DNA of 15,823 nucleotides from assembly GCA_949287345.1 (NCBI GenBank), contig CASEGD010000020.1:1-15823 (forward strand). The letters run 5' to 3'. Positions 1 to 13,226 of the stretch are shown piece after piece (position 1 is the first letter of the stretch; each line of letters opens with the position of its first letter). The stretch comes from an uncultured Phascolarctobacterium sp. (GTDB lineage Bacteria > Bacillota > Negativicutes > Acidaminococcales > Acidaminococcaceae). The notes under the pieces were generated by a model. It was given only the letters and a program-made list of their open reading frames with translations, searched no databases and had not been told where the DNA came from. The position numbers and the translations under genes were made by a program.

Positions 1-1167
1 ATTCTTTGCAGGATTACGTTATCGCCGCTTTTTACCACCAGTTTCACCTTGCGCTCGGGGTTAGCCACACGCATGAACAGGCGCACCTGTTCGCCTGCTT
101 CCGGCAGGTTCAGGCACTGCGGCACGCAGGTACGCACGCCTTTTTCGGCGGTTACGGTAACAAATTTGGTGTTGCCGTCCAGCTTGCCCTGTGCTTCCAG
201 TGCGGCAAATTTACCGGCAATTTCCGCTTCCTCGGATACAAAGTCAACCAGGTCATGCACATGCACAACATTGCCTGCGGCATAAAAACCGGGCAGGCTG
301 GTCTGACGGTGCTGGTCCACAACCGGGCCGTTGGTCAGCGGGTACATTTTCAAATCCAGCCCGCGGCTGAGTTCGTTTTCCGGAATCAGTCCGACGGAAA
401 GCAAAACGGTATCGCAGTCGATGTCAAATTCCGTACCCGGAATCGGGCGCATTTTTTCATCAACCTTGGCAACGGTAATGCCGTTAACGCGGTCCTTACC
501 GTGGATTTTTACAATTGTATGGGAAAGATACAAAGGAATATTATAATCGTTCAAGCACTGTACAATATTACGGGTCAAACCGTTGGAGAACGGGCAGATT
601 TCCAGCACTGCCTGCACCTTGCAGCCTTCAAGGCTCATGCGGCGCGCCATGATAAGGCCGATATCGCCGCTGCCTAAAATAACGATTTTATGCCCGGGGA
701 TGTAACCTTCCATGTTAACCATGCGCTGTGCCGCACCGGCGGTAAATACGCCTGCGGGGCGTTCGCCCGGAATGCGGATAGCGCCGCGGGTACGTTCGCG
801 GCAGCCCATTGTTAAAATAACGGTTTTGCCCTTAACTTTAATCAAACCGTGGTCGGGGCTTACGGCAACGACGGTTTTGTCTTTTTCAACGCTCAAAACC
901 ATCGTATCAGTCAGGCACTCAATTTCCGGTTTATCTTTTACAAGTTCAATGCAGCGGTGAGCATAGCCCGGTCCGGTCAGTTCCTCCTTAAAATGGTGCA
1001 GGCCGAAACCGTTGTGGATGCACTGCTGCAAAATGCCGCCCAGCTCGCGGTCACGCTCAATTACCAAAACGCTTTTCGCGCCGTTCTGCCATGCGCTGTA
1101 AGCAGCCGAAAGCCCGGCAGGACCGCCGCCGACAATTACTATATCATAAAGGTCTTTAAGCTTTCAT
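1..1167 (-). CDS. NAD(P)/FAD-dependent oxidoreductase, C-terminus cut by window edge, start disrupted
   Basis: The minus strand is open without a stop from 1163 to base 1 (about 387 codons). The N-terminus has an FAD-binding Rossmann motif (IVIVGGGPAGLSAAYSA). Family-typical stretches follow: GGILQQCIHNGFG, TMGCRERTRGA, a second dinucleotide fold GSGDIGLIMARR (probably NAD(P)), SVGLIPENEL, and GNVVHVHDLVDF near the C-terminal third. This is the pyridine-nucleotide-disulfide-type oxidoreductase that commonly follows a GlpA-like gene in anaerobic Firmicutes; the substrate is unknown. The gene begins at the end of the GlpA-like gene through a TAATG overlap (ATG at 1167-1165, AGGA just upstream), but that ATG frame stops after three codons (ATG AAA GCT TAA). 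The coding frame has no ATG, GTG or TTG before the FAD motif. One base fewer near 1158-1161 would give an in-frame MKAKDLYDIVIVGGG start. Probably 20-40 C-terminal residues lie beyond the window. Confidence 0.85.
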
Positions 1168-9947: not shown

Positions 9948-10760
9948 TTACTTCCTCCGCAAATTGGCCAGAACATTCTGATAGGTTTTATCGTCAATCA
10001 ACGCAGGCGTTTTGCCTGTTTTTAACATTACTGCCAGCAACTCATCAGCCGTTGTCGCCGTATTATTGGCAACTTTAGCATAATAATGCTGTTTTAAGTT
10101 GTTTTTAACGCTATCGTATAATATTTTATCACAATTCAGCGTTTTTTTACAGTTTTCGTAATCTGACCACGGCTCCGTCAGTAAAAATTTAACTACAGCG
10201 TCATGCTGCTTTTCTTTTTCATAACGCGCACAGACATTACATAATTTGCCGCTGCCGTTAATAACAGCGCCGCATTTACTGCATTTTTCAGCACCGTGCT
10301 GCGTTAAAAACTTTTCCCTTTTGGCAGAAGCAGCTTTAAAAGAAATTAAACTTTGCTGTAAACCTTCATTTTTTACAATACTGGTCAGATTTTTTATTTC
10401 AGCCAACTCATTTTTATCCAAAATAACCTTTGCAGGCTTTTCATTAGCGCCGGCATTTTTTAAAAATAAATTATCAACACTGCCGTTAAAAAATTTTAAA
10501 TCACTTACTGCACGTTTTTTTAACGCGCCGTTGATATTTTTTAAAAACTGCTTTTTCATTAATAGCAAATGATTTGACCACACCGAACTGTCGGTATTGA
10601 TATAAAGAATTTTATTTTCCAGCTGCACAGGTTTGGAATGTTTGGCGACATTTTCTCCGCAGATACTGCTCCAGCGGCTTTGCAGATAAAAAACAAGGTA
10701 AGATTCTTTTTCTTCCTTACCCGGCAGCATATTAAGTAAAATCTGCTCAACATTTTCCAT
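9948..10760 (-). CDS. dciA: DciA-family (DUF721) helicase-loader-like protein with a zinc-ribbon extension
   Basis: Residues 1 to about 80 match the DciA/DUF721 fold: RWSSICGENVAKHSKPVQLE (29-48), LYINTDSSVWSNHLLLMKKQ (52-71) and FLKNING, with the conserved Trp and 'A-HS-P' pattern. DciA interacts with the replicative helicase DnaB and serves as loader in bacteria lacking DnaC/DnaI. After a linker of about 75 residues comes a zinc-ribbon-like module with CSKCG (Cys160, Cys163) and CNVC (Cys174, Cys177), then about 90 mostly helical residues that I do not recognise. At 270 residues it is clearly longer than typical DciA proteins (about 100-170). The ATG overlaps the recF stop by one base (TGATG), so translation is probably coupled. 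Zinc binding and helicase loading are inferences from motifs and context. Confidence 0.85.
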   Translation of the reverse strand: MENVEQILLNMLPGKEEKESYLVFYLQSRWSSICGENVAKHSKPVQLENKILYINTDSSVWSNHLLLMKKQFLKNINGALKKRAVSDLKFFNGSVDNLFLKNAGANEKPAKVILDKNELAEIKNLTSIVKNEGLQQSLISFKAASAKREKFLTQHGAEKCSKCGAVINGSGKLCNVCARYEKEKQHDAVVKFLLTEPWSDYENCKKTLNCDKILYDSVKNNLKQHYYAKVANNTATTADELLAVMLKTGKTPALIDDKTYQNVLANLRRK

Positions 10761-11890
10761 CAGCCCTGCGTTACCTTTCCGTTCTCAATATAAAAATAAG
10801 CGTTATTATTCAAATCAGGAATCAAATGCTTATCGTTAACCGTAATAAAAGTCTGCACCCTGCCGTCGATAAATTTTAGCAAATGCGTACGTCGGTCGGC
10901 GTCAAGCTCGCTCATAACGTCATCAAGCAGCAAAACGGGATATTCGCCCACGGCGTTTTTCACATATTCCAGCTGCGCCAATTTCAAGGCAAGTGCCGCG
11001 CTGCGCTGCTGCCCCTGCGAACCAAAGGCCTTTAACAGCCTGCCGTTAACATAAAAAAATAAGTCATCGCGGTGCGGGCCTATACTGGTATTGCCGCGCA
11101 GAATATCCAAAGCCTGGCGCGCTTTAAGTTCCTGTAAATAAAAATCTTTCCAATCAGCTTCGCTTTTATCTTCCTGCTCTAAAATAAAATCGCCGCTGGT
11201 TTTTAAGCAGTATTTTATTTCAAGTTCTTCGCCGCTGCCGGCAATGGAAGCATAAATATCACTGGCAATAGCCCTTAATTTATCTAATGCTGCCAACCTT
11301 TTACGCACAATTAACGCCGCCGAAGTACAAAGCTCATTATCCCATAAGCCAAGCTGCTCCTTGCCACTGCCTTCATCACGGATAGCTTTTAACAGCTTGT
11401 TGCGCTGCAAAAGCAGGCGGTTATATTTAACCAACAGTTCATAATAAGCTTTATCTGTCTGTGCTATCTGCATATCAAAAAAGCGGCGGCGCAGCTGAGG
11501 TTCACCCTTAATCAGCTGCAAATCTTCCGGTGAAAACATCACCATATTCAATGTACCGTAATGTTCCTTGGCTTTAATGCTGACATTATCAAGCAGCAGC
11601 TCTTTTTTTATCCGCCCGTGCTGCTCATAACGCTTGATTTTTATATCATAATCAGCGTCAAAACTGATAAAATCTACTTTTACCGCCAGCTCACGCCTGC
11701 CTTCGCCAAACAGGTCATCCTCCTGCGAAGTTCTGTGCGACATGCCAAAAGCAGCATAAAACAGAGCCTCCAGCAAATTGGTTTTTCCCTGCGCATTTTT
11801 GCCGTAAAAAATATTCACCATCGCCGGAAACTGCAAAGCGCATTGGCTATAATTTCTGAAATTATGCAGATAAAGGCCGTTAATTTTCAT
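10760..11890 (-). CDS. recF: DNA replication and repair protein RecF
   Basis: RecF is an SMC/ABC-type ATPase that helps load RecA at gaps through RecOR. The 376-residue protein shows MKINGLYLHNFRNY at the N-terminus, Walker A GKNAQGKT (30-37), the ABC signature SQGQQRSAALALKLAQLE (291-308, with QGQQR) and Walker B PVLLLDD followed by VMSELD (318-330). GPHRDDLFFYVNG (271-283) is also typical. The ATG at 11890 lies inside the last codons of the S4-domain gene (an 11-base overlap), and the stop shares a base with the dciA ATG. Both junctions point to translational coupling in the operon. Length and motifs look normal and intact. Confidence 0.97.
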   Translation of the reverse strand: MKINGLYLHNFRNYSQCALQFPAMVNIFYGKNAQGKTNLLEALFYAAFGMSHRTSQEDDLFGEGRRELAVKVDFISFDADYDIKIKRYEQHGRIKKELLLDNVSIKAKEHYGTLNMVMFSPEDLQLIKGEPQLRRRFFDMQIAQTDKAYYELLVKYNRLLLQRNKLLKAIRDEGSGKEQLGLWDNELCTSAALIVRKRLAALDKLRAIASDIYASIAGSGEELEIKYCLKTSGDFILEQEDKSEADWKDFYLQELKARQALDILRGNTSIGPHRDDLFFYVNGRLLKAFGSQGQQRSAALALKLAQLEYVKNAVGEYPVLLLDDVMSELDADRRTHLLKFIDGRVQTFITVNDKHLIPDLNNNAYFYIENGKVTQG

Positions 11891-12104
11891 TTTCTACGGT
11901 AATTTCAGCCAAATCCTTAACTTTAACCACATCGCCGGCGCGGATTTTTTTACGCTTTTCGCTGACAGGCTGCCCGTTCAGGCTCACAAGCCCTTCTTCA
12001 ATCAGCTCATGCGCCTGCCCGCCGCTCATTACCACACCAGCAAATTTTAAAAGATTGGTTAAAGTAATAAATTCGGTTTCAATCTGTACTTGTAATTTTT
12101 GCAT
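11880..12104 (-). CDS. rlbA: S4-domain RNA-binding protein (YaaA/RlbA type)
   Basis: The 74-residue protein is a single S4 RNA-binding domain with the classic sequence GGQAHELIEEGLVSLNG (28-44), then KRKKIRAGDVVKVKD. The gene between dnaN and recF in Bacillus (yaaA, renamed rlbA) has this size and fold and has been linked to ribosome assembly. The frame is open to a TTG at 12116, but I choose the ATG at 12104 because the family begins close to it. Moreover, when the 11-bp duplication in dnaN is removed, the restored dnaN stop (12108-12106) lies just one base before this ATG, the usual operon spacing. The AAGGG that could serve as ribosome site is about 12 bases upstream. Confidence 0.9.
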   Translation of the reverse strand: MQKLQVQIETEFITLTNLLKFAGVVMSGGQAHELIEEGLVSLNGQPVSEKRKKIRAGDVVKVKDLAEITVENEN

Positions 12105-12128
12105 TTTAGAACACAACCCTTACCGGAG

Positions 12129-13226
12129 TTACAATGTAAATATAATTTTCTTCGCCGACAGGCTTAATGCAAACTTAATGCAAACTGGGCTCAGCGAATT
12201 ATTAAGTTCCATAACAGCTTCCTCGTCGGAAAGGTTCTTCAAAATATCAAGAATATATTTCGAATTAAAGGCTACGTTCAATGTTTCGCCTTCCGTGCGG
12301 CACTGAATATCTTCACGGCCTTTGCCTACATCCGGGCTGCTGGAAGTAACAACAATTTCCGTATCGCCAACGCTTACTTTGATAATGCTGTAATCACCAT
12401 CGCTGGAAAACAGCGCCACCCTTTCAACGGCACCTGCCAGCTCTTTAACATTGAATCTGGTTTTGGTGTTGAAAGAAGGAGGAATAACGCGGCGGTAATC
12501 CGGGAACTTGCCTTCAATAAGTCTGGAAACAATAATTACCTGATCAATAACCACCATAATCTGGTTATTTAAAAGCGAAATTTTAATCTCCTGCGGCAGG
12601 TCGCTGTTCAAATTGCGGGCAATTTCTGCCAGTACGCGCGCCGGAATGATAATCGACATTTCTTCGCCTGCTTCATAAGGCATGCTTTTAATGGCCAGCC
12701 TGTGCGTGTTGGTGCCGACAAAAGTAATTTTTCCTTCGCCGATTTCTACAAGGATACCGGTAAATAGCGGCCTTGCTTCATCTGTAGAGCAGGAGAAAAT
12801 AGTCTTTTTGATAAGTTCCTTAATTTTTTCGTCTTCCAGTACAATCTGTTTTTCAGGATTAAATTCCGGGAATTTCGGATAATCATCTTCGTTCATCAAC
12901 AGCAGTTGAAAATCAGATTTAGCCGACTGAACGGTAATGGTTCTTTCTTCCTTGTTTTTGGTAATGGTAACGGTTTCTCCCGGCAGTTTGCGCATCAGTT
13001 CGGCAAAATGTTTGGCAGATACTACGATTTCACCATTGGCTTCCGTATTGCTTTCCACCGTGCAGGAAATAGCCATATTTAAGTCCATGGCCTGTACGTA
13101 CAGAATGTTTTCGGCGGCAATGATGTGGATACCGGAAAAAATCGGCGCCGTCGGTTTGGAAGAAATAGCACGCTGTACAGTTTGGATAGCTTTGTTAAGG
13201 CTTGTGGTTGAGCAGGTAAATTTCAT
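12129..13226 (-). CDS. dnaN: DNA polymerase III beta sliding clamp, C-terminus frameshifted
   Basis: Residues 1-351 are a normal beta clamp: MKFTCSTTSLNKAIQTVQRA, SKPTAPIFSGI (23-33), TNTHRLAIK (172-180), SRLIEGKFPDYRRVIP (234-249) and the third domain ending VMELNNSLSPVCIK. The clamp encircles DNA and tethers polymerase III and other partners. After Lys351 the reading frame as given continues with 14 unrelated residues and stops at 12129. The cause is an exact 11-bp tandem duplication at 12163-12184. With one copy removed, the same DNA reads PVGEENYIYIVTPVRVVF and stops at 12106, giving a 369-residue protein with the conserved TPVRV-type end (compare E. coli MPMRL), part of the partner-binding cleft. 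The start is firm: GGAGGT lies nine bases before the ATG at 13226. The origin spacer precedes it. Confidence 0.95.
   Translation of the reverse strand: MKFTCSTTSLNKAIQTVQRAISSKPTAPIFSGIHIIAAENILYVQAMDLNMAISCTVESNTEANGEIVVSAKHFAELMRKLPGETVTITKNKEERTITVQSAKSDFQLLLMNEDDYPKFPEFNPEKQIVLEDEKIKELIKKTIFSCSTDEARPLFTGILVEIGEGKITFVGTNTHRLAIKSMPYEAGEEMSIIIPARVLAEIARNLNSDLPQEIKISLLNNQIMVVIDQVIIVSRLIEGKFPDYRRVIPPSFNTKTRFNVKELAGAVERVALFSSDGDYSIIKVSVGDTEIVVTSSSPDVGKGREDIQCRTEGETLNVAFNSKYILDILKNLSDEEAVMELNNSLSPVCIKFALSLSAKKIIFTL
12163..12184. repeat. Exact 11-bp tandem duplication inside dnaN
   Basis: The 11-mer CTTAATGCAAA occurs twice head to tail (12163-12173 and 12174-12184), with the first two bases repeated again (CT at 12185-12186). 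Eleven is not a multiple of three, so the duplication shifts the dnaN frame near its 3' end. Clean restoration of the family-typical C-terminus on deletion of one copy shows which state is ancestral. Confidence 0.95.

Follow-up and report, generated by a model that had tools for sequence, protein, structure and literature searches.

Among the closest described counterparts of this locus is the sliding clamp of Escherichia coli. Its cleft includes Val360 and Met362 to Arg365, according to passages of PMC11139829, and when residues 362-366 are missing the clamp loses all activity in loading and in replication by Pol III, as stated in part of PMC3022782. On the side of sequence quality, sections of PMC11017572 document spurious frameshifts in low-coverage assemblies.

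Here, we consider a dnaN gene whose C-terminus is, as written, replaced by an out-of-frame tail through an exact tandem duplication of 11 bases. The window, that is, the whole stretch of DNA analyzed, is contig C20 (15,823 bases) of draft genome G000, which comprises 1.456 Mb in 207 contigs and is 89.72% complete with 3.21% contamination. Its genes are ordered dnaA-dnaN-S4-recF-gyrB-gyrA, the usual neighbourhood of a replication origin (Table 1); the S4-domain gene scores 63.5 bits against TIGR02988, under the cut-off of 84.75. RNA families (gathering scores) and tRNAs were searched for within the window, and none were found. Our main conclusion is that the duplication is best read as an artefact of building the draft genome, a contig-joining error, to which we give a probability of roughly three in four.

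Table 1. Features of the window, numbered from its first base, and exact tandem repeats (unit of at least 10) in the sampled part of the draft
Feature	Position	Strand	Remarks
dnaA	13475..14911	-	TIGR00362
dnaN, sliding clamp (beta), 365 aa as written	12129..13226	-	TIGR00663, three Pfam clamp domains; canonical up to residue 351, frameshifted from 352 to 365
Second copy of the 11-bp unit	12174..12184	+	relatives carry one copy only
First copy of the 11-bp unit	12163..12173	+	one of two exact copies
Rest of clamp C-terminus as in relatives	12106..12162	-	here out of frame, undecayed
S4-domain gene by recF (YaaA-like)	11880..12116	-	Pfam S4_2, 78.4 bits; likely ATG 12104-12102
recF	10760..11890	-	TIGR00611
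2-bp loss relative to G003 and G004	1160..1161	-	start of second flavoprotein gene (gene 3-1167)
Repeat in dnaN, 11 bp	12163..12184		single-copy in relatives
Repeat in rpoD, 55 bp	L062:19046-19155 (G000 C1)		single-copy in relatives
Repeat in tRNA-Lys(CTT), 14 bp	L135:5464-5491 (G000 C50)		single-copy in relatives
Repeat beside tRNA-Gly, 28 bp			single-copy in relatives
Noncoding repeat, 29 bp			single-copy in relatives
Repeat at a start codon, 10 bp			single-copy in relatives
Repeat of 12 bp	L068		common to relatives
Repeat of 11 bp	L113		common to relatives
Repeat of 12 bp	L143		no spanning relative

The clamp gene and its duplicated segment

The product of dnaN passes TIGR00663 with 289.1 bits (cut-off 137.65) and holds the three clamp domains PF00712, PF02767 and PF02768. 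Over residues 1-351 it shares 94-100% identity with the clamps of five genomes from the same genus, whereas its last 18 residues are swapped for FALSLSAKKIIFTL, a 14-residue tail produced by the frameshift of the 11 extra bases. The protein as written thus ends VCIKFALSLSAKKIIFTL, while the related clamp proteins P0002 and P0003 end ...VCIKPVGEENYIYIVTPVRVVF; the latter record, 97% identical to the window's protein in the alignment and with an ordinary tail, is missing about 20 internal residues.

The unit CTTAATGCAAA is present twice, exactly and head to tail, and the match extends over 2 further bases, giving a run of 13. TRF reports 2.2 copies with a 100% match for the 11-bp unit, and the 22-mer covering both copies occurs once in the draft. 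Such a repeat is beyond chance, since 400 windows simulated with a first-order Markov model contained 4 exact tandem repeats in total (unit 11-60), against 1 in the real window. Both copies could be located exactly as a sequence-only reading of this DNA had described them, and its claim that the stop would lie one base before the S4-domain gene also holds: in the relatives' frame the stop falls at 12108-12106, next to the ATG at 12104-12102.

The comparison with the dnaN of closest relatives, which that reading had proposed as a check, gave a uniform answer. All five genomes of the same genus, Phascolarctobacterium (G001-G005), carry a single copy of the unit in the alignment; an exact-pattern search confirmed this in four of the five, G001 differing by a base within the unit. 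Against the three nearest relatives (L032, L033, L036), 11 gap positions were found in 7661 aligned columns, with the gap at the 11-bp repeat. The 59 bases at 12104-12162 differ from these relatives by 0, 1 and 1 bases and display no sign of decay, few changes being expected there anyway at about 95.5% identity. Identity to G002, G003 and G004, followed in 500-base steps, had no clear switch at the repeat, and a two-strain chimera at this point was thus discarded.

Homologues were then considered more broadly. A protein search of 61 genomes returned a DnaN match in 58, the draft included, and all 58 match rows from the 57 other genomes stop at query residue 348-354, so that the new tail is aligned in none of them. 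Of 682 protein clusters found, 120 were listed; these 120 cover at most 97% of the DnaN query, and no FALSLSAKK-type tail was present among them, with the reservation that the collection is clustered at 90% identity and that an identical allele could hide inside a cluster. Relatives naturally bearing such a tail, the case that the sequence-only reading had named against itself, are therefore absent from the 57 genomes and the 120 listed clusters. Instead, a canonical TPVRVVF-type end, absent in the window's DnaN, was found in 116 of the 120 listed homologues (113 by pattern, and P0014, P0092 and P0102, near-canonical by eye). The four others, P0005, P0011, P0066 and P0076, have aberrant or cut-short ends and are each on a single contig; the aberrant C-termini of P0005, P0066 and P0076 perhaps reflect broken contigs or similar faults. 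One clamp relative was found in viral contigs, with 29% identity to query residues 17-90.

As written, DnaN lacks the conserved C-terminal segment that helps to form the partner-binding cleft. Residues 1-366 of P0001 align to residues 1-365 of E. coli beta, and the cleft residues therefore fall in the lost segment. The E. coli beta-C protein (described in part of PMC3022782) likewise loses C-terminal cleft residues, but by removal of 5, whereas 18 are replaced in the window's clamp. Since removal of just the last five residues already prevents loading of the E. coli protein on DNA, according to the same section, the window's allele should be unable to sustain life by itself. The expectation that losing these residues, part of the cleft, would be harmful holds up. 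That the duplication destroys the clamp is accurate for the sequence as written, but probably not for the organism.

Similar lesions elsewhere in the draft

Stretches of 81 of the 207 contigs (890 kb, window included) were sampled, and nine exact tandem repeats with a unit of at least 10 were recorded; six are single-copy in relatives, two are shared with them, and one has no spanning relative (Table 1). The repeat in rpoD is an exact 55-bp tandem duplication at a site that is single-copy in G002, G003 and G004. It splits the gene into two overlapping frames, both of which score to RpoD models. The search for a second rpoD in the draft yielded only weak sigma-factor matches (E about 1e-5). Words of 55 bases are, besides, in common use in assemblers. 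In tRNA-Lys(CTT), the 14-bp duplication lies inside the anticodon arm, at a site that is single-copy in G001, G003 and G004; ARAGORN calls the broken gene Arg(CCT), and finds Lys(CTT) at this place in G003 and G004. The sampled part also contains one run of 10 N, which we count in favour of an artefact because scaffolding can leave such runs.

The idea that tandem repeats are commoner in this draft was rejected: counting units of at least 10, the sampled stretches of G000 (890 kb), G004 (643 kb) and G003 (444 kb) contain 9, 3 and 11, respectively, and several of those in G003 are private to it. Three side observations concern the sampled drafts. An open reading frame of G003 (C12, L203:11937) is interrupted by a tandem copy of 20 bp, either a fault of the same kind in another draft or a real mutation; we count it among the points against the artefact reading. 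Deletions of 47 and 50 bp lie in open reading frames of G004 (C4, about 127730 and 147330), as similar faults in other drafts of the genus. Finally, the stretch L109:11800-12400 (G000 C24) is divided between two contigs in each of the three relatives searched, its first 85-94 bases matching one and the remainder the other; either the contig may have been wrongly joined or the genomes may have been rearranged.

Bases are lost as well as gained. Compared with G003 or G004, six segments of 19-40 bp are missing, in nrdD, PEP synthase, csm5 and three other open reading frames, with microhomologies of 0, 0, 0, 0, 2 and 0 bp; natural deletions often have more. That in nrdD, encoding the anaerobic ribonucleotide reductase, removes 19 bp with no microhomology (L077, about 1500, G000 C16), and the remaining five remove 32-40 bp. 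On the dnaN contig itself, the 2-bp loss at the start of the flavoprotein gene makes it read MKA then stop, and constitutes a second frame break.

A frame test was applied to ATG-started open reading frames (ORFs) of at least 150 aa from the sampled stretches of G004 and G003, which were aligned to the G000 sample and to one another; alignments counted from 90% coverage and 85% identity. Of the G004 ORFs, 12 of 227 were out of frame in G000, two of these seemingly through faults of G004, the G000 frame being longer there; of the G003 ORFs, 7 of 144 were. Most breaks were polarised by the open frame alone rather than by a third genome. The controls gave 1 of 115 broken in G003 and 0 of 114 broken in G004. 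The reverse test flagged 11 of 238 G000 ORFs against G004 and 2 of 148 against G003, but events already counted in the forward direction reappear in these figures, together with the two G004 faults and a few further frame differences. With G004 ORFs alone, Fisher's test gave p = 0.07 (12/227 versus 1/115), or p = 0.11 without the two G004 faults (10/227); taken by itself this comparison is weak, which we count among the points against an artefact. The G003 ORFs gave p = 0.019 (7/144). Pooling without the G004 faults gave p = 0.0025 (17/371 versus 1/229), and p = 0.007 when dnaN and the flavoprotein gene were counted once (15/369), values to be taken as a guide only, as many ORFs enter the pooling more than once.

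Besides dnaN, 14 distinct ORFs are broken, of which 13 were scanned for families, the excluded one spanning two tiles. Those that could be named are rpoD, nrdD, PEP synthase, a PotC-like permease, an AbgT-like transporter, a PhnU2-like permease, PhnW, csm5, a MATE-family transporter and the flavoprotein, which reached no family cut-off; three have no family match at all. Several are of dispensable kinds (transporters, csm5), and for these a real loss is possible.

Origin of the duplication

Four options had been put forward: an assembly or amplification artefact, a fresh slippage mutation, a mixed population with an easily reverting duplication, and a tolerated altered clamp. The first is the best supported, because this draft breaks other vital genes by exact duplications and by deletions of roughly similar size with almost no microhomology. 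Two pieces with a common 11-base end would have been joined, or a gap closed, with the common end left unmerged and therefore written twice; the living bacterium would carry an ordinary dnaN. Faulty joins that either leave the common end twice or lose bases would provide one cause for the lesions in dnaN, rpoD and the tRNA and for the deletions. We infer both this single common cause and the exact assembler step.

An exact head-to-tail copy absent from relatives is what such an error would leave, and a real slippage mutation would look alike. Similar faults were moreover found in genes that can hardly be dispensed with, namely rpoD, tRNA-Lys(CTT) and nrdD. These are needed for life, except that another tRNA-Lys might cover for Lys(CTT). 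It is hardly plausible that one cell would be without both rpoD and the clamp cleft, and without a tRNA-Lys in addition. The undecayed state of the out-of-frame part of dnaN and the second break in the flavoprotein gene are also counted for an artefact. In common with the spurious pseudogenes treated in sections of PMC11017572, the lesions are single frame-breaking indels in conserved genes, raised in one draft; those sections cover stops and frameshifts in assemblies generally, and exact tandem duplication of joined ends does not appear in them. The titles and abstracts listed by literature searches likewise contained nothing specific on an artefact of this kind. Further points go against a draft-building error. 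Any read is longer than an 11-base repeat, which should therefore pose no problem to a plain k-mer assembler, and the error requires us to assume a step of joining or gap filling. Tandem repeats are also more numerous per kb in G003 than in G000, and several of them are private to G003, so that the genus may have genuine ones.

The private G003 repeats also speak for the second-ranked and rather unlikely reading, a real and recent 11-bp slippage duplication in part of the sampled population. Its carriers could not replicate alone for long, the assembler would have taken a minority allele, and the repeat would revert easily. An exact tandem unit with a 2-base overlap is what slippage could leave, and the flanking sequence is undamaged and almost the same as in relatives. 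However, a minority allele should not win the assembly, and slippage leaves unexplained the deletions without microhomology and the breaks in rpoD and the tRNA.

Real cases other than a minority allele are, taken together, improbable. In one, the mutation would be fixed in the strain and compensated, for example by a second dnaN or by ribosomes shifting the frame back. The roughly 10% of the genome missing from the draft leaves room for a second dnaN, but G000 has one dnaN match, as have 56 of the 57 other matching genomes (G050 has two), and from the repeat to the new stop no recoding signal was seen by eye, nor any obvious slippery run at which programmed or transcriptional slippage might restore the frame; we consider this case very improbable. 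Slimmer still is the chance of a tolerated altered clamp, in which the new tail, hydrophobic and 4 residues shorter than the old end, would replace the C-terminus of a working clamp with changed partner binding, since the TPVRVVF-type end is kept in nearly all listed homologues and the E. coli clamp without residues 362-366 is inactive, as part of PMC3022782 reports.

Consequences for the organism and its draft genome

That a gut Phascolarctobacterium lineage lives with a frameshifted clamp tail, its polymerase and repair proteins binding the clamp in a new way, is what we hold to be least credible of all. A real duplication would be at odds with present knowledge of the clamp C-terminus; most likely, the change in the clamp tail is not a real biological feature. 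If it is an artefact, gene losses or pseudogenes called from this draft are untrustworthy, as frames are broken in several vital genes. Exact tandem copies and microhomology-free deletions in indispensable genes may then offer a rapid check on the quality of drafts assembled from mixed samples.
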